Origin: Paenalicyclobacillus mengziensis | Lineage (GTDB): Bacteria > Bacillota > Bacilli > Alicyclobacillales > Alicyclobacillaceae | Direction: 5' to 3' | DNA: 64,000 bases | NCBI RefSeq assembly: GCF_017298635.1 | Contig: NZ_CP071182.1 | Span: 2,666,001 to 2,730,000, forward strand | Part shown: piece by piece, positions 19,684-27,524 of the stretch | Layout: every line of letters starts with the position of its first letter | How positions within the stretch are numbered: position 1 is the first letter of the stretch | Notes under the pieces: model-generated | Database searches by the model: none | Told to the model about the DNA's origin: nothing | Seen by the model: only the letters and a program-made list of their open reading frames with translations | Program-made: the position numbers and the translations under genes

Positions 19684-19791
19684 TTCCTGTCACAATGGTT
19701 CTGAGAAGTGCGAACGTTTTATCGACAGTTGAATGTTACAGGCCAGTTTGCGGTTGAATGTGGACAGTTGTGGTTCGTGGGGGTGGAGTGT

Positions 19792-20730
19792 GTGCCTATC
19801 GCTGATGCACACGTTGACGTACTATGGAGAATGTTGCGAAGTGGCGCTCGTTTCTACGGCGAGTCACAGCTTCAAGCCAGTTATGACAAACTGCACAAGT
19901 CCGGGGTGGGCACACAAGTGTTCGCCCTGTTTGTCGATCCGGCAGACCCGGATACCCGCCAGTTGGAGGACGTCTTGGTGTCGATAGATAAGTTTTACCG
20001 CCAGGTCGTCTCGCCCGGCTTGGTTCATGCCGTTCGATCGGTGGACGAGCTTTTGGCCGCACGGAGCGAAGGTGTGATTGCAGGGCTCCTTTCGATTGAG
20101 GGCGGCGGTTGTCTGCGCGGGAAACCTGAGTTGTTACGGGTGATGTTTGACCTTGGGGTTCGTGGAATGGGACTGACGTGGAACCTTCCCAATGCCCTCT
20201 CGGACGGGTGCATGGAGCCGCGCGGAAGTGGACTGACAGGAGCGGGGCGAGAAGTGGTGGAGGAGATGGGACGCCTTTCGATGTGGGTCGATCTCGCTCA
20301 CCTATCGGATCGGGGTGTGGAAGACGTCTTTTCCCTTACGAATGGGGCTGTGATGGCCTCTCATGCCAATGCACGCCAAGTTCACAACCATCCTCGCAAT
20401 CTCTCTGACGCGGTCATTGTGGAACTCATTCGCCGGCAGGGGTGGATGGGGATGGTGTTTGAATCGAGCTTTGTGGATAGAGGGGACAACGTCCCATATA
20501 CGCAGCTATTCCGACATATGGATCATGTGCTCGAACTCGGCGGTGAGGACATTCTCGGCTTGGGATCCGATTTTGACGGCACGACGACCCCTGTTTCCGG
20601 CCTTGCTGATGCCGGGGATTACGCCGCCTTTGCTGCCGCTGTGAAGGAACGTTACGGGGCCAACCTGGCAGACAAGATCTTGTTCCAAAATTTTGAGGAC
20701 TTTTTGCTGCGTTCTTTGCCGCAATCGTAA
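19792..20730 (+). CDS. Membrane dipeptidase family (M19) metallohydrolase
   Basis: Zinc dipeptidase of the renal-dipeptidase family. The start GTG 19792 gives MPIADAHVDVLW, carrying the first HxD ligand pair. Further motifs are LLSIEGGGCL (bridging Glu), WVDLAHLSDRGVEDV, VMASHANARQVHNHPRN (His ligands) and GLGSDFDGTT. About 312 residues. GGGGGTGGAG precedes the start; GTG 19783 is an alternative. Such genes are often linked to spore or cell-wall peptide turnover. In B. subtilis tdh and kbl sit at this position, so the content differs here. Confidence 0.87.
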   Translation: MPIADAHVDVLWRMLRSGARFYGESQLQASYDKLHKSGVGTQVFALFVDPADPDTRQLEDVLVSIDKFYRQVVSPGLVHAVRSVDELLAARSEGVIAGLLSIEGGGCLRGKPELLRVMFDLGVRGMGLTWNLPNALSDGCMEPRGSGLTGAGREVVEEMGRLSMWVDLAHLSDRGVEDVFSLTNGAVMASHANARQVHNHPRNLSDAVIVELIRRQGWMGMVFESSFVDRGDNVPYTQLFRHMDHVLELGGEDILGLGSDFDGTTTPVSGLADAGDYAAFAAAVKERYGANLADKILFQNFEDFLLRSLPQS

Positions 20731-20940: not shown

Positions 20941-21240
20941 GACAGCCCAAGGAAAGCCATAAGGTGCGACGGGGCCGCCCGAGCCGATCAAGCCCGATTT
21001 TACCCTCCCGCCGTGTCACCAATAACAGTCATTCGCCCTTCCGCATAGGATGTGGCGTAATGTCTGGGCGGTGGCAGATGCCCCATGTGCATAGGCACCA
21101 CAGCAAGGCCAGCACAGCAAGGCCAGCACAGAAATAGGCACCACTGGCATCCGTCCAGCATACTGTTGCATTACGAGCCGGGCTCGGCAACCGTCAGGCG
21201 CCAGGTTGCAAAAGCCCGGAGGTACAGAGGAGGTTTCCGC

Positions 21241-21780
21241 ATGGTGCTCTCAAACAAGGACCTCAACTACCGGGAAATCGTTGCAAACGCGGTATGTGGT
21301 CGCGGCAGCAAATACTCTCAAACCACCTATACGCTCCGACCTGCAAATCGACCAACTACGATTGGCGGTTGCTGGGTGATGAACCACAGCTGCGAGGCAG
21401 AACTCGTCGGTGATTATGTTGAGGTGCACGGTCGATTCGACTGCAATGTCTGGTATTCGTATAACGGCAACTCCGAGACCGCTGTCGCCAAGGATACCGT
21501 CTCCTATGTCGAACAGATCGCCCTGCGCGATCTCGATATGGATGCGGACCGCGACAGCCGAGAGGTGCAGGTGCGGGTACTGCAGAATCCGAACTGCCTG
21601 GATGCAACTGTGACCGGCAACGGGTCGGAAATCCTGGTTCGGGTCGAGAAAGAGCTTGGTGTCGAAGTCATTGGCCGGACAAAGATCACCGTTTTGACGG
21701 CTGACTTGGCAGAGAAGAAAGAAGAGGACTTCATCGATGATGAGGAAGACCTGTTGGAGGAAGTTGAAGTCGAGGACTGA
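21241..21780 (+). CDS. cotE: Outer spore coat morphogenetic protein CotE
   Basis: 179 residues. The sequence LNYREIVANAVCGRGSKYSQTTY followed by GCWVMNHSCEAELVGDYVEVHG and DCNVWYSYNGNSETAVAK is characteristic of CotE, which organises assembly of the outer coat on the mother-cell side of the forespore. A strongly acidic C-terminal tail (EEDFIDDEEDLLEEVEVED) is the usual interaction region. ATG 21241 follows GAGGAGGT. It directly precedes the ATP-grasp/amidoligase run, so those enzymes may act at the coat. I see no convincing SigE or SigK promoter by eye. Confidence 0.95.
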   Translation: MVLSNKDLNYREIVANAVCGRGSKYSQTTYTLRPANRPTTIGGCWVMNHSCEAELVGDYVEVHGRFDCNVWYSYNGNSETAVAKDTVSYVEQIALRDLDMDADRDSREVQVRVLQNPNCLDATVTGNGSEILVRVEKELGVEVIGRTKITVLTADLAEKKEEDFIDDEEDLLEEVEVED

Positions 21781-21828
21781 CCTAAAGAAGGTCGAGATTG
21801 ACTCAACTGAAAGTTCTTCAACGCGGGC

Positions 21829-21859
21829 GACGGGGCGGTATACGCCCCGTCTTTTTCTT
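21829..21859 (+). terminator. Rho-independent terminator after cotE
   Basis: GACGGGGCG / CGCCCCGTC with a GTATA loop, then TTTTTCTT. It separates cotE from the ligase genes, which therefore need their own promoter or read-through. Confidence 0.92.
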
Positions 21860-21879
21860 GATAATCGGCGTGTGGCCCA

Positions 21880-21895
21880 TGCACAGTGTTGTGCA
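21880..21895 (+). other. Hairpin just ahead of the first ligase gene
   Basis: TGCACA-GTGT-TGTGCA, a perfect 6-bp stem ending 7 bases before the GGAGGTGG ribosome site at 21903. It could affect translation start or be a protein site. Confidence 0.45.
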
Positions 21896-21918
21896 GGAAC
21901 ACGGAGGTGGAACCCTTG

Positions 21919-23328
21919 ATGGTGCGGTTCTGGGTAGATCCCTCTGTCCCAAAACAGCAACTCACATGTACTGGAAAAAAATTCGCATCTGACGGTGCCA
22001 TCAAAATCAGGTATGGCAACCGCGTGGTAACTTGTGTCGTCCGTAACCAGCCGGCAGCAAAAGGCACCACAGTCGACACCGGAGCAGTGTCTGTTGATGA
22101 CGGTCAGGTGCGGATGAGCAGCCAACTGCAAAAGACGCTGAGGCTGCCTTCCGAAGGCAAGCTGCACTTCATGCCGGAAAACGGGGCCTGGAGACTAGGG
22201 CCTATTCTTGGTGTGTATGTGACGAAGGAGAAAAATCCGCAGCGCATGTTCGGCGAACAGACAAGGCTGCTCGAGGACCTTACGCGTTATGCAGAAGAAG
22301 AGTGCGTCGACATCGTCGTGTTGACGCCAGGCTTTAAGGACTATCAGCGGGGCTGGCGCTACGACACAGGACTCGGGACGTGGCGTGAGTCCTTGGTGAC
22401 GCTTCCTGATGTCGTGCTTCGGCGCTCCGGGACATTCCATGAACAAGGCGCCAAAGTCGCGGCGGACTTGAATGCCTTTCAAAGGTCCGGCCGACTGCAC
22501 AGCCTGCCGCGACACAGCAGCAATAAGTGGACTTTTTATCGAGTCATGCAAGAGAACAGCAAACTGCGGTCCTATCTCCCTGCCACCGTCCGTGTGACGT
22601 CTGCCACGGAATTGAAGACAGCCCTGCAACAGATGAAAGACGCGTATCTCAAACCCATGAATGGTGCGCAAGGGGTGTGCATTCATCGCCTGCAACTGCG
22701 AAACGGGGGCACCATTGTCATGGCCAGGGAAGACAGAGTGGTCCCGCGGCAAGCGGAAAGATTGTCGACGCGCTTTCGCCCGGATACGCGCCTAGTGACC
22801 TCAGAGTTGCACGGTGATACCGAACTTCAGTCGTTTTGGCATTCGATTCAGGATAAGTTTCACAAATGGGTGCTTCAGGAGTCTGTTCACCTCCTGCATA
22901 CTACGGACGACCGCCCAGTTGACTTCCGCTGGCTGGTTCAGTATACCGACGGGCCAAAGGTCATCGGCCGTGTAGCGCGGGTTGGATCCCCCGGGGCCAT
23001 CACAACCAACCTGCACACGGGTGGAAAAGCCATGGATGCCAAACAGGTTCTCGAGCTTCTGCCGAACGTCGATACGGACAAGACCCTTGCCGATATGGAT
23101 ACGCTTGCACTCGGCGTTGTTGAACAGTTGCGACACGCTTTCGGTCCATTTGCGGAGGTGGGAATTGACATTGGTATTGACGAAAGTGGCAAGGTTGTGG
23201 CCTTTGAAGTGAATCCGACGCCGGGTAGGCGAATGTTGAGATCGCTCTCGGACAACGTTCGCAAGCTGTCACTCGTTACTCTGGTTGAATATGCTATCAA
23301 GGCCGCTGGGTTTGAAAACGGAAAGTGA
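21919..23328 (+). CDS. YheC/YheD family endospore coat-associated ATP-grasp protein (copy 1)
   Basis: 469 residues. The N-terminal ~130 residues form a beta-rich domain (FWVDPSVPKQQ...). The ATP-grasp region has the AYLKPMNGAQGV nucleotide-binding loop, the WVLQESVHLL adenine strand, DFRWLVQ, and the metal motif VGIDIGIDESGKVVAFEVNPTPG; the catalytic residues look intact. ATP-grasp enzymes join a carboxylate to an amine through an acylphosphate. YheC/YheD proteins are spore-coat associated in Bacillus and no substrate is established. ATG 21919 follows GGAGGTGG. First of four closely packed genes. Confidence 0.9.
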   Translation: MVRFWVDPSVPKQQLTCTGKKFASDGAIKIRYGNRVVTCVVRNQPAAKGTTVDTGAVSVDDGQVRMSSQLQKTLRLPSEGKLHFMPENGAWRLGPILGVYVTKEKNPQRMFGEQTRLLEDLTRYAEEECVDIVVLTPGFKDYQRGWRYDTGLGTWRESLVTLPDVVLRRSGTFHEQGAKVAADLNAFQRSGRLHSLPRHSSNKWTFYRVMQENSKLRSYLPATVRVTSATELKTALQQMKDAYLKPMNGAQGVCIHRLQLRNGGTIVMAREDRVVPRQAERLSTRFRPDTRLVTSELHGDTELQSFWHSIQDKFHKWVLQESVHLLHTTDDRPVDFRWLVQYTDGPKVIGRVARVGSPGAITTNLHTGGKAMDAKQVLELLPNVDTDKTLADMDTLALGVVEQLRHAFGPFAEVGIDIGIDESGKVVAFEVNPTPGRRMLRSLSDNVRKLSLVTLVEYAIKAAGFENGK

Positions 23329-23347
23329 CGAAAAGGGAGTCGTTCGG

Positions 23348-24724
23348 ATGGGGACAGGAGAGAAGATGCGTCTTGTAATCTTTGACAACCCACGAGTGTT
23401 CATTCGAATTCACCCCACTCTCGTGTCCCGCCTCTCGCTGCGGCCAGATTCAACCTGTAACCTGACGTTTGGGAGTAAGCATGCGTCCGTTCCTGTTGTG
23501 GTGGACCAAGAAGCGCCGACGGATAGCGTGCTGGTCAGCCGGACGTTTCATCAGCAATTGTCTCCCGATGTTGACCTGGATTTCGTGCACGTCACAACTG
23601 AGAACAATGAGCTTACCGTGGGCCCGCTTATTGGCATCCTCTGCAATCCGGTGTGGAAACCGAAGCAGGGGCGGCTCAAAAATAACAACCAACTGCCTGG
23701 ACTGCAAAAGATGGCCGAAGTCGGTCGCCGTGAAGGGGCACTCGTCTATCTGTTTGGGCTGTCGGCCGTGGACTTTCGAACACACTCTGTCACAGGCTAC
23801 GTGTGGAACGGCGGGCGCTGGACACGCACGGTAATGCCTTTGCCAGATGTGATTTACGACCAGGTCATCTCGCGAAAGATTGAGAATTCGAAAGCTTACA
23901 TGGAGAAACGCAAACGTTTGAGTGAGTTGTATCAGGACCGAATCTTCAATGACGGATTCTTTGACAAGTGGAAGGTCTATGAATGGCTGGTCAGTGACAA
24001 ACGCACAAAGCCGCATGTGCCGGCGACGGTGCGGTACACCGGAGCACAGAGTTGCGCAAGGTTTATTCATACGCACGACATCACCTTCCTGAAACCTGTT
24101 CACGGAAGCCTCGGACTTGGCATCATTCGTGTCACGAAGCAGGGAGAGAAGTCGCTGCGCTATGAAGTCAAACATAAAAATCAACAGGAACAAGGGGTTG
24201 CTGCTTCTCCTCTGCAACTCGCCGAAACACTGCGCCCGCGCTTGGTGAGGCGACCGTATGTCATGCAACAGGGGCTCCGATTAGCAAGGTACCACGGATG
24301 CCCCTTTGATGTGCGCATCGTCCTCCAACGGGACGGAACGGGTGAGTGGAAACGAACCAAGATGTTCGCACGGGTCGCAAAGGAGGGAGACTTTACGTCC
24401 AACCTCAGCAGTGGCGGTGAGGCCTTGCCGGTGTCGACCATCCTGCAGTCATTCTATGCCAAGGAAGCGGATCGGAAAAAGGCAAGAACGCGCATGAACC
24501 GGGTGGCGACGTTAGTGACAGAAGTAATGGAGGCGCAGTCGGAGAAGCAATTTGGCGAGCTTGGCATCGACATTGGTCTTGACGAGAAGGGACACGTCTG
24601 GGTGATTGAGGTGAATTCAAAACCATGGAAGCGGCCGTATACAGAAAAAGGTCGGCAGGACCTCGTCGATCTCGCTTTTACGCGGCCAATCGAGTACGCC
24701 ATCTACCTGGCAAATAAACGGTGA
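23348..24724 (+). CDS. YheC/YheD family ATP-grasp protein (copy 2)
   Basis: 458 residues. The same layout as copy 1: N-terminal beta domain, linker, then ATP-grasp with VPATVRYTGAQ, FLKPVHGSLGLGIIRV, YVMQQGLRLARYHGCPFDVRIVLQ and LGIDIGLDEKGHVWVIEVNSKPW. All key acidic and basic positions are present. ATG 23348 follows AAAAGGGAG by about 10 bases; ATG 23366 with AGGAG is an alternative. Only 19 bases separate it from copy 1, which argues for one transcript. It has diverged well away from copy 1, so the copies likely use different substrates or act in series. Confidence 0.9.
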   Translation: MGTGEKMRLVIFDNPRVFIRIHPTLVSRLSLRPDSTCNLTFGSKHASVPVVVDQEAPTDSVLVSRTFHQQLSPDVDLDFVHVTTENNELTVGPLIGILCNPVWKPKQGRLKNNNQLPGLQKMAEVGRREGALVYLFGLSAVDFRTHSVTGYVWNGGRWTRTVMPLPDVIYDQVISRKIENSKAYMEKRKRLSELYQDRIFNDGFFDKWKVYEWLVSDKRTKPHVPATVRYTGAQSCARFIHTHDITFLKPVHGSLGLGIIRVTKQGEKSLRYEVKHKNQQEQGVAASPLQLAETLRPRLVRRPYVMQQGLRLARYHGCPFDVRIVLQRDGTGEWKRTKMFARVAKEGDFTSNLSSGGEALPVSTILQSFYAKEADRKKARTRMNRVATLVTEVMEAQSEKQFGELGIDIGLDEKGHVWVIEVNSKPWKRPYTEKGRQDLVDLAFTRPIEYAIYLANKR

Positions 24725-24752
24725 ACCGCCACCAGAAAGGAGTTGTCGCCTT

Positions 24753-26219
24753 GTGACGTACTACTTACTGCATACGGGGCAACCGTCAGCAAAGCGTCTG
24801 CTCAAACGGGTGGCAGATTTAAGAGAGTATAAGTCAGCGGCAGACGTGAAATCGGAAGATGTCATCATCCGCTTCGGCGAGTCGTTTGAGGCAGACCCGC
24901 CGCAGGGAAGAGTGCTGAATCCCCGAAACGCCATGGAGCGGGCGAAGGTCCGGCAGTCGATGATGCTGTTTTTGCGCAGGATGGGTGTGCGTACGCTGCC
25001 GAAAAACCCGAGTTCCCAAGGCATTAATATTGCACGGCATTATCGTTTTCCGATTTATGACCTCAGAGGGTTAACCTGTTTTCGATCGGACAGCGGCCCC
25101 GCCTGGATGAATCAGCGCATCCAGCGGATTCAGGATAATTTCCATGAGGTCGCCCTTGACGACGACAAAGTGACGACTCGGGCGATGTACCTTGCTGTGC
25201 GGGCACTTCACGCGCTGGGTCTCGACAATGGACTCGTCAGCATTGCAATGGGGCAAAAAGGGGTTCTTTACGTTGTTGATGTGACACCAACCCCTGTACT
25301 CAAAGGCCGCCTCCTCGACTTGTTTGCGAATGCTGTGGAACGGCACATGGACGACGACGCTGAACTCGCAAAAAACGGTGTCGGACCGTTTCTCATGGGT
25401 ACAGACGTCGAGGTGATGCTCAAAAACGCCAACTCTGGGAAGATGGTGCTCGCGAGCCAGTTTTTTTCGCGGAAAGGCAAGATTGGCTGTGATGACCGCA
25501 GTATACAGTTTGACGGCAAGCGGTTGCCTTTGCTTGAACTCCGCCCGGATGCGGATTCAAACCCGCTTGCTCTCATTGCCAATCTCAAGAAGTTGATGGT
25601 AGAGGCTTCCACAACCATCAATCGGCGAGGAATTGAGTGGCGGGCCGGCAGCATGCCGTTTAAACCGTATTCCATCGGGGGTCACATTCATTTTTCCGGC
25701 GTGCCGTTCACGGGCCATCTCGTTCGTGCCCTTGACAACTATGTGGGACTGCCGCTAATGGTCGTTGAGGACCCAAGGACGGCCGTGCCGCGGCGCAAGC
25801 GCTACGGCTTTTACGGAGACATCCGGCATAAAGACTACGGGGGGTTTGAATACCGCACCCCAGGCAGTTTTCTTGTGAGTCCGGAAATTACTGCCGCCGC
25901 AATTTGTTTGTCGTATATCGTGGCGATTCACCATAGAGAGTTACCCGTCTTTGACATCTATGACCGAAACCTACAGGAGAGTTTTTTCAAAGGGCAAGCG
26001 GCAGCACTTGCACCGATCGCGGAGCGAAACCTGTCGCTTCTCGCGCGCACGTCTACGTATGCGAGATACCGCGAGCAGATTGAACCACTTATCGCGATGA
26101 TCCGCTCCGGAACCTTCTGGGATGAGACAAAAGACGTCAGAGCCGCCTGGGGGATTCCGCTTGTGAAACCAAAGGCAACACAAACATCAACACGTAAGCG
26201 GGTTGCGTCACGAGGCTAA
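24753..26219 (+). CDS. Putative amidoligase (GS-fold, phiEco32-like COOH-NH2 ligase type 2) with degenerate ATP-grasp N-terminus
   Basis: 488 residues. Residues 1-205 resemble an ATP-grasp reduced to its edges: the final strand reads VLYVVDVTPTPVLKG where active relatives have EVNPTP, so the metal-binding Glu and Asn are replaced, and the central loops are missing. Residues ~210-400 are GS-like, with FLMGTDVEVML, DGKRLPLLELRPDADSNP, GGHIHFSGVP and GGFEYRTPGSFLV matching the Glu, Arg and His positions of the GS-fold COOH-NH2 ligase family. The expected chemistry is ATP-dependent amide formation. GTG 24753 has an AAAGGAG site. It lies between ATP-grasp copies 2 and 3. Confidence 0.82.
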   Translation: MTYYLLHTGQPSAKRLLKRVADLREYKSAADVKSEDVIIRFGESFEADPPQGRVLNPRNAMERAKVRQSMMLFLRRMGVRTLPKNPSSQGINIARHYRFPIYDLRGLTCFRSDSGPAWMNQRIQRIQDNFHEVALDDDKVTTRAMYLAVRALHALGLDNGLVSIAMGQKGVLYVVDVTPTPVLKGRLLDLFANAVERHMDDDAELAKNGVGPFLMGTDVEVMLKNANSGKMVLASQFFSRKGKIGCDDRSIQFDGKRLPLLELRPDADSNPLALIANLKKLMVEASTTINRRGIEWRAGSMPFKPYSIGGHIHFSGVPFTGHLVRALDNYVGLPLMVVEDPRTAVPRRKRYGFYGDIRHKDYGGFEYRTPGSFLVSPEITAAAICLSYIVAIHHRELPVFDIYDRNLQESFFKGQAAALAPIAERNLSLLARTSTYARYREQIEPLIAMIRSGTFWDETKDVRAAWGIPLVKPKATQTSTRKRVASRG

Positions 26220-26246
26220 AGCATGGCAGAGGGGAGCGTGATTGCG

Positions 26247-27524
26247 ATGAGTGAAACGGATAGCGCGCAGTTGGTATGGATACGGGATGGCGGCAGGATT
26301 CGGGTGGTCCTCTACACGAGCACAGGTCTGAAGCGGGACATCAACAGCAAGGCAGCGACCGTCCGCTTGTCCAATCTGCGCCTCCCGTGGGTGACATCAC
26401 TTCCGACGAAAAAGATTGTCTACAGGCACCCCACGCATCTGAAACAGCATGGAACGGATGTTGTCGCAGGACCCGTTTTTGCGATTCTTGCAGGCAATCG
26501 GCACTTTACCGGGAGTCGGGCGGACTTCCGGGACATGTTAGAGACAGGAAAAGCCGGCGGCGAGTTCGTCTATGTCCTGCCAACCGAGTGCGTGACGGAG
26601 GGAAAAACCTGGACCGGGTATGTGCGCATCGGGTACCAAAAGTGGATCCCGATTCCCTGTCCCCTGCCCGAGGCTGTCTATAACCGCATTCCCAACCGAG
26701 TCCTCGAGCGAATCAAGCCAGCCCTCGCCGCAAAGCGGCAACTCGAGCACTTTGGCATCCCGATGTTCAACCCTGACTACTTCAGCAAGGCAGAGACCTA
26801 CGATGTCCTTCGGCACGCCGGACTCGGACACTACCTGCCGCGCACGCTTGACCTCATGACGTGGTCAGGGTTCTCCGCGATGCTGCGCCAGTCTCGGGGG
26901 GTGTATCTCAAGCCGACCCACAGTTCGGTTGGACACGGCATCATGCGCGTGGACAGAAGCGGATCGGAATGGCGTGTCCGGGTCTTGAAGAATCTCAAAC
27001 ACAGCGAGTACCACGCACACTCGCTTGATGCGGCATGGAAGTTGGTGCAGCAAAACCGTATCCCCGGGAAATACGTCATTCAGCGCGCCATCTCGCTTGT
27101 CGAGTGGGAAGGTAAACCGTGTGACCTTCGCGTCCTGCTGCAAAAGCAGGGGAGGGGTTGGCATGTCGTCGGCAAAGGCGTCCGCGTCGCTGGGGCAAAG
27201 TCCATCACGACGCACGTGCCTGCAGGCGGATCAATTGTCGCCCTCTCGGAGCTTCTCGCCCGCTCATTTCCAGATAGGGCGAAAGACGTGGAAGAGAAAG
27301 TTGAGTCACTGGCACTTTCGTGCGCCGAGGCCATTGACGCTCACTACAACGGGCAGCTCGGCGAGATGTCGATGGACATCGGGATTGATAAGGACGGTAA
27401 GGGATGGTTGTTTGAGGCCAACTCGAAGCCGATGAAGTTCGACGAGCCACAGATTCGGGAGCATTCATTAAGGGGCGTCCTGAGACACCTGACAGAGTTG
27501 CGCCGGGGACCTGAAGTTCGCTAA
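26247..27524 (+). CDS. YheC/YheD family ATP-grasp protein (copy 3)
   Basis: About 425 residues. The ATP-grasp signature is complete: YLPRTLDLMTWSGF, GVYLKPTHSSVGHGIMRV, YVIQRAISLVEWEGKPCDLRVLLQ and MSMDIGIDKDGKGWLFEANSKPMKF. ATG 26247 is placed by GAGGGGAG at 26229-26236; ATG 26223 is possible and would leave 3 bases after the amidoligase stop. It is the last of the four-gene ligase run; the PhzF-like gene follows 64 bases later. Confidence 0.88.
   Translation: MSETDSAQLVWIRDGGRIRVVLYTSTGLKRDINSKAATVRLSNLRLPWVTSLPTKKIVYRHPTHLKQHGTDVVAGPVFAILAGNRHFTGSRADFRDMLETGKAGGEFVYVLPTECVTEGKTWTGYVRIGYQKWIPIPCPLPEAVYNRIPNRVLERIKPALAAKRQLEHFGIPMFNPDYFSKAETYDVLRHAGLGHYLPRTLDLMTWSGFSAMLRQSRGVYLKPTHSSVGHGIMRVDRSGSEWRVRVLKNLKHSEYHAHSLDAAWKLVQQNRIPGKYVIQRAISLVEWEGKPCDLRVLLQKQGRGWHVVGKGVRVAGAKSITTHVPAGGSIVALSELLARSFPDRAKDVEEKVESLALSCAEAIDAHYNGQLGEMSMDIGIDKDGKGWLFEANSKPMKFDEPQIREHSLRGVLRHLTELRRGPEVR

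Follow-up and report, generated by a model that had tools for sequence, protein, structure and literature searches.

Within a 64,000-nucleotide stretch of the Paenalicyclobacillus mengziensis genome (contig NZ_CP071182.1, positions 2,666,001 to 2,730,000; hereafter the window), cotE, encoding an outer spore coat morphogenetic protein, is followed on the same strand by four genes of amide-ligase families: three ATP-grasp enzymes of the YheC/YheD type (YheC/D; ligases 1 to 3 in gene order) and, between ligases 2 and 3, an amidoligase carrying a glutamine synthetase (GS)-fold domain of family PF14395. This gene arrangement is far beyond chance and recurs across the order, the class and the phylum. 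Amide ligation tied to the spore coat, the general form of an idea put forward in a preliminary description of this sequence, is the best reading, and the cluster is conserved and probably functional. We put at about an even chance the more specific proposal that the genes encode a mother-cell set of ATP-dependent amide ligases working on or at the CotE layer of the coat.

Conservation of the cotE-amidoligase linkage

All five genes are intact, and the ligase genes are separated by gaps of 19, 28 and 3 nucleotides. Pfam profiles confirmed the tight run of three diverged YheC/D proteins and one GS-fold amidoligase that the preliminary description had reported (family cut-offs here are 25-27 bits; all three YheC/D genes exceed the curated PF14398 cut-off of 26.8 bits). 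Its statement that the run lies directly behind cotE is right as to order, but 138 nucleotides containing a strong terminator intervene.

Conserved linkage of cotE, YheC/D and a PF14395 ligase in related genomes had been named in the preliminary description as a test of its idea, and such linkage was found. Within the order, PF14395 was present in 57 of 59 genomes, once in nearly every one (in one case split over two contigs), and CotE was likewise present in 57 of 59. Among 250 Bacilli sampled across the class, 140 carried PF14395 and all 140 of these also carried CotE (raw counts that ignore kinship); CotE occurred without PF14395 in 39 genomes, and the amidoligase in none of the 71 that lacked CotE. 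The amidoligase gene lay downstream of cotE, on the same strand and within 7 kilobases (kb), in 125 of 127 Bacilli genomes, these being the PF14395-positive genomes of the 140 for which CotE coordinates were listed. A phylum-wide sample of 299 genomes contained 33 non-Bacilli genomes with PF14395, 20 of them with CotE, and by coordinates the pair was no more than 7 kb apart in all 20. YheC/D genes adjoined the amidoligase or were fused to it in 18 of the 20 non-Bacilli loci fetched. CotE-like proteins therefore exist outside Bacilli, in diverged form; in a published survey of sporulation genes, CotE was present throughout the spore-forming bacilli examined and absent from all clostridia covered (PMC3533761).

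Such linkage could in principle arise without any functional tie, had the amidoligase been inserted once into a stable cotE-mutS stretch and then inherited; in most Bacilli its gene does sit between those two, where gene order is conserved. We consider this explanation improbable, because the neighbours differ outside Bacilli, where cotE was found after the amidoligase (locus L119), between two amidoligases (L120) or on the opposite strand (L118), and CotE-containing genomes nevertheless remain linked. The pair is thus not one frozen segment, and no CotE-less Bacilli genome has kept the amidoligase.

A profile search found no PF14395 in the B. subtilis control genome. Replacement of the amidoligase in Bacillus by the coat transglutaminase Tgl was considered and rejected, as Tgl co-occurs with the amidoligase in families f5, f12, f23 and others. 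Eight genomes (G343, G297, G381, G414, G443, G467, G491 and G561) each carried two tandem CotE-like genes linked to the amidoligase, and the fetched loci with such tandem genes also carried a YheC/D run. Carboxypeptidases of the M14/AstE-AspA type lay beside the amidoligase on the opposite strand at L123 (6468-10124) and L109 (6805-7785), one of them with five repeats.

The YheC/D enzymes

Ligases 1 and 3 are each only 23% identical to ligase 2. All three nevertheless keep the residues invariant in the family sample, namely Lys, Pro, Asp-x-Arg, Asp and Glu-x-Asn, which include the ATP-binding Lys and the metal-binding D and E-x-N: K245, D335, R337, E413, D417, E430 and N432 in ligase 1; K249, D321, R323, E404, D408, E421 and N423 in ligase 2; and K230, D301, R303, E381, D385, E398 and N400 in ligase 3. 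A PDB sequence search with these proteins returned only sub-threshold matches to glutathione synthetase, tubulin-tyrosine ligase and RimK. In a quick tree of 103 YheC/D proteins with mechanically assigned gene positions, the gene two before the amidoligase (the position of ligase 1) formed a clade of 18 Bacilli rows (support 98), while the gene immediately preceding the amidoligase (the position of ligase 2) formed another clade of 18 Bacilli rows (support 97). Downstream YheC/D genes fell into two groups, and ligase 3 belongs to the one that holds the second such gene in other families. Each of the two upstream positions corresponds to an ortholog group of its own that is retained from family to family, which bears out the earlier claim that the ligases are mutually different; judged by this tree, the run is one of distinct old enzymes with no recent duplicates. 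The ancestral layout may have been two YheC/D genes, the amidoligase and two further YheC/D genes, with the first downstream one lost in the window lineage. At L055 (9322-9888; genome G040) the downstream YheC/D gene encodes just 188 amino acids and is probably truncated.

B. subtilis YheC and YheD are regulated by sigma-E and SpoIIID (PMC517825, PMC7911427), and YheD interacts strongly with itself, first assembling into rings and later enclosing the spore in a shell (PMC7911427). On this precedent the YheC/D proteins and the amidoligase could be structural shell proteins whose catalysis is not under selection. We regard this as very improbable, given that the catalytic residues are invariant in such diverged paralogues and that the front domain of the amidoligase, described below, shows what catalytic loss looks like.

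Domains of the amidoligase

In the C-terminal part of the amidoligase, residues D218, E220, E262, R264, H311, H313 and E366 were identical in 41 of 41 homologues, and the same seven together with R368 were common to viral homologues at 17-25% identity. Searching viral contigs yielded 15 distant relatives of the amidoligase; searches of phage genomes and of PDB sequences with the window protein gave no match. An AlphaFold2 model of the whole protein was confident mainly at residues 205-467, and this segment matched YbdK-type enzymes best (Z 17.2 and 16.7; the top one with a root-mean-square deviation of 3.7 Å over 251 residues), followed by PafA (Z 16.4), plant glutamate-cysteine ligase (GCL; 16.3), Dop (15.2) and GshF (15.0). 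Conserved residues and modelled fold together suggest that the C-terminal domain is a live GS-fold enzyme. Catalytic residues are retained in all four enzymes of the run, which supports the earlier interpretation.

The N-terminal 215 residues matched no Pfam family. Modelled alone, residues 1-207 reached a predicted local distance difference test (pLDDT) score of 79, from an alignment of six close sequences and with five models that varied in confidence. Structure searches with this model matched RimK (Z 14.0), ArgX (13.3), PsnB (13.1) and LysX (about 12), and the match spanned the full length of RimK, ArgX and PsnB with about 90 residues missing. Compared by profile, the front domain and YheC/D matched weakly (31% probability), whereas the structure search gave a clear RimK-type match. 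The Glu of the E-x-N metal motif (position 176) was absent in all 41 homologues, being replaced by Asp in 24, and the front domain of the window protein had no Lys-Pro of the YheC/D type. The amidoligase gene is thus itself a fusion, joining an ATP-grasp domain that is shrunken and apparently dead to a live GS-fold enzyme.

RimK, ArgX and LysX modify the acidic C-termini of S6 or LysW, and so have protein or peptide acceptors. Because these enzymes act on acidic protein tails, a docking role for the front domain is reasonable, and by this analogy it most likely docks the acceptor. The resemblance to the ligase PsnB could also point to a graspetide-type system in which ATP-grasp enzymes macrocyclise a ribosomal precursor peptide. 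We give this almost no weight: no common short gene was noticed beside the run (open reading frames below 80 amino acids were not searched systematically), and YheC/D proteins belong to a different ATP-grasp family.

Fused amidoligase-YheC/D copies

In some relatives an amidoligase and a C-terminal YheC/D domain form one chain of about 870-925 amino acids, as identified by Pfam at L088 and L090 and by a local profile at L111; proteins at L087 and L089 match in length and in their N-terminal alignment, the part that the comparison covers. At L088, L090 and L111 the fused proteins are second, long copies of the amidoligase. Such fusion is direct evidence that both ligase types work together, as the GS-fold and ATP-grasp domains do in GshF. 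Four long copies have Ile or Leu in place of the active-site Arg 368. A Mur-type ligase adjoins the long copy at L087 and L088 (by Pfam) and at L089 (by sequence), and phosphoenolpyruvate mutase, a phosphonopyruvate-decarboxylase-like thiamine pyrophosphate enzyme and a nucleotidyltransferase/aminotransferase lie alongside at L088 (Pfam) and L089 (sequence). From their gene content, the L088 and L089 neighbourhoods are candidates for a phosphonate-linked amide pathway.

Since these fused copies, which lie away from cotE, sit in a small-molecule gene setting, they keep alive the explanation that the ligases produce something free, either a small molecule or a short non-ribosomal peptide (glutathione-like or polymeric), for deposition in the coat or use in sporulation, with CotE being only a neighbour of the same timing. 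The GshF-like logic and fold, the occurrence of an M19 dipeptidase upstream in multi-ligase loci and the lineages that have the amidoligase without CotE fit this explanation as well. We think it possible but rather unlikely, as the link to cotE is very tight, with direct adjacency in most Bacilli, and the front domain looks like enzymes whose acceptors are proteins or peptides.

Expression signals

A terminator-like site was found within 150 nucleotides past the cotE stop codon in 47 of 70 amidoligase-containing loci, compared to 1.1 expected from shuffled sequence; on this comparison the terminator after cotE is a feature, not an accident. It suggests that cotE is made in quantity and that the ligase enzymes are made at a lower level through read-through. 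Alternatively, the ligases may have a promoter of their own, although in several relatives the next ligase starts only about 10-85 nucleotides after cotE, leaving scant room for one. Upstream of cotE, an alignment of ten Alicyclobacillaceae loci revealed two CATA-type -10 elements, conserved in the majority of these loci: CATAGGATG / CATACGATG and CATACTGAT / CATACCGAT. Assigned through consensus, they appear to be sigma-E/sigma-K-like, the sigma factors of the mother cell.

A lysine in the CotE tail

The C-terminal tail of the window CotE is acidic (TADLAEKKEEDFIDDEEDLLEEVEVED). Setting aside three loci with interrupted or frame-shifted cotE, we found a Lys within the first 18 tail residues in 69 of 70 loci with the amidoligase versus 6 of 29 without it, with Asp or Glu adjacent to this Lys or close by in nearly every case. 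The amidoligase shows a single change of state on a MutS tree of 66 taxa, and the loci lacking it form one clade; independent repeats of the association were sought, and with this single change none is available. Beyond the class, the only cases lacking the Lys as well as the amidoligase are genome G408 (83% complete) and some CotE proteins that have no tail. From these alignments the tail Lys may be an acceptor or docking site, a lead that falls short of proof. It is conceivable, but in our estimate unlikely, that the amidoligase joins a carboxylate to this acid-flanked Lys (or cross-links CotE), with YheC/D enzymes extending the chain, as a dedicated, ATP-driven protein modification of the coat that is old in spore formers and was lost together with the Lys in the ancestor of the B. 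subtilis lineage.

At two loci an element with a large serine recombinase on the opposite strand splits cotE close to its 3' end: L142 (3084-6476; Alicyclobacillus suci, on the same contig as L050) and L143 (2724-8535; genome G008, flipped coordinates). The missing tail with its EKKDED lysines lies beyond the element, just before the first YheC/D gene, and the junctions carry short shared cores (CAAACGAA; AAGCT.TGT). The interruption looks like an intervening element of the sigK-skin or gerE-gin type; cotE is not named as a target gene in one published account of such elements. In genomes G004 and G007 the CotE matches end at profile position 142-148 and the cotE-amidoligase distance is 7-9 kb, and cotE is likely interrupted in the same way.

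Proposed mechanism

In the mechanism we propose, the GS-fold domain would activate a carboxylate as an acyl phosphate and couple it to an amine, while the apparently dead RimK-like front domain would most likely dock the acceptor. The YheC/D ATP-grasp enzymes would then add units one by one, a division of labour like that between the GS-fold and ATP-grasp activities of GshF in glutathione synthesis. Where the amidoligase stands alone beside cotE, as in most Bacilli, it may perform a single step tied to the coat. The analysis establishes the genes with their domains, active-site conservation, fold, linkage and fusions; we infer the mother-cell timing of the ligases, the order of the reactions, and CotE or a CotE-bound protein as the acceptor.

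The earlier interpretation, in which a peptide tag or polyamide is a putative product, is partly supported; several observations weaken it or weigh against a ligase set working at the CotE layer. CotE was not detected in 13 of the 33 non-Bacilli amidoligase genomes, and CotE therefore cannot be the sole acceptor. The preliminary description had singled out the acidic CotE tail as a possible acceptor or scaffold, but tails are equally acidic without the amidoligase (acidic fraction 0.43, versus 0.45 with it); acidity is not specific, and we rejected it as an acceptor mark. The contrast in tail Lys rests on a single loss of the amidoligase. Most Bacilli have the order cotE, amidoligase, mutS (the last identified by similarity) with no ATP-grasp gene between, and the conserved terminator that splits cotE from the ligases is at odds with simple co-expression. 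The AlphaFold2 models rest on thin alignments. Finally, our literature search found no biochemical activity of YheC/D or PF14395 proteins in spores. No paper pairing 'CotE' with 'amidoligase' was found.

Layout and neighbours of the locus

Coordinates are collected in Table 1. The start (ATG) and ribosome-binding site of cotE were read from the sequence. Upstream of cotE lie, in order, recA, recX, rny and ymdB (named from their sequences), spoVS (PF04232) and the M19 dipeptidase gene. An M19 gene directly preceded cotE in 7 of 10 loci scanned, six from the same order and one from family f22, all of them multi-ligase loci; it was found neither in the two scanned loci with only cotE and the amidoligase nor in L082. 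The dipeptidase probably goes with clusters of the multi-ligase type and may be a peptide-trimming partner. The closest named relative in our search was Alicyclobacillus ferrooxydans (L047), with an amidoligase 78% identical to that of the window.

Table 1. Features of the cotE-ligase locus in the window, and neighbourhoods of long amidoligase copies at the other loci named.
Feature	Coordinates	Strand	Evidence
M19 membrane-type dipeptidase, neighbour upstream of cotE	19708..20730	+	PF01244, 265 bits
Pair of conserved CATA-type -10 elements preceding cotE: CATAGGATG, then gene-proximal CATACTGTT	21085..21215 (approximate)	+	alignment
cotE, outer spore coat morphogenetic protein, 179 amino acids	21241..21780	+	PF10628, 189 bits (cut-off 25)
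Intrinsic terminator between cotE and the ligase run, GACGGGGCG-loop-CGCCCCGTC-TTTTT	21829..21851	+	9-bp stem with 8 G-C pairs, then TTTTTCTT
YheC/D ATP-grasp ligase 1, 469 amino acids, ortholog group '-2'	21919..23328	+	PF14398, 175 bits
YheC/D ATP-grasp ligase 2, 458 amino acids, ortholog group '-1'	23348..24724	+	PF14398, 265 bits
Amidoligase gene, GTG start	24753..26219	+	PF14395, 322 bits (cut-off 25)
Amidoligase N-terminal domain, residues 1-207, apparent shrunken RimK-like pseudo-ATP-grasp	24753..25373	+	AlphaFold2 model, structure search
GS-fold COOH-NH2 ligase domain (PF14395)	25374..26219	+	profile 322 bits, model residues 205-467
YheC/D ATP-grasp ligase 3, 433 amino acids	26223..27524	+	PF14398, 216 bits
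Long-copy neighbourhood, L088	6548-14001		
Long-copy neighbourhood, L089	3602-11001		
Long-copy neighbourhood, L087	6011-10105		

Significance and comparison with known systems

Most knowledge of the spore coat comes from B. subtilis, a species in a lineage without the amidoligase. In most other Bacilli, and in further classes, a conserved set of amide ligases accompanies the gene for the principal outer-coat organiser. This suggests a covalent coat-building step hidden from work on that model, and it is probable that the cotE-amidoligase pairing reflects a chemical modification of the coat that is widespread. A specialist would not have expected the near-perfect linkage to cotE, the fusion with a pseudo-ATP-grasp domain or the loss in the B. 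subtilis lineage. The CotE-tail Lys offers a concrete site to test, and if the ligases were to aid spore robustness, the system would bear on the food-spoilage spores of Alicyclobacillus.

Iyer and colleagues (Mol Biosyst 2009) are said to have predicted that YheC/D and PF14395 proteins take part in peptide modification of the spore wall or capsule. Compared to B. subtilis YheC and YheD, the window proteins share the PF14398 ATP-grasp family and the sporulation setting, but they are three diverged paralogues encoded in one run with a GS-fold ligase next to cotE. The amidoligase belongs to the 'phage phiEco32-like COOH.NH2 ligase-type 2' family (PF14395) and has the core residues of its viral homologues, whereas the version in spore formers differs in its degenerate RimK-like front domain and its tie to cotE. 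Like the B. subtilis coat transglutaminase Tgl, which introduces amide (isopeptide) links into the coat (PMC6490927), the ligases would form amide bonds there; Tgl, however, is ATP-independent, and the two are not mutually exclusive, as many amidoligase-containing genomes also have Tgl. PafA and Dop, which likewise have the GS fold, target carboxylates and lysines of proteins; action on protein is putative here, and no Pup-like protein is known in this setting, the genome not having been searched for Pup. RimK, ArgX and LysX share the fold of the front domain, which lacks their complete ATP-binding apparatus with E-x-N, being some 90 residues short and without the motif Glu in any homologue. 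GshF provides the precedent for pairing a GS-fold with an ATP-grasp enzyme in successive amide bonds, and the fused architecture of relatives resembles it. In the window gene the GS-fold domain does not share its chain with an active ATP-grasp, since its fused ATP-grasp looks dead and the active ones are encoded by genes of their own, whereas at L088 and L090 a YheC/D domain is joined to the amidoligase itself.

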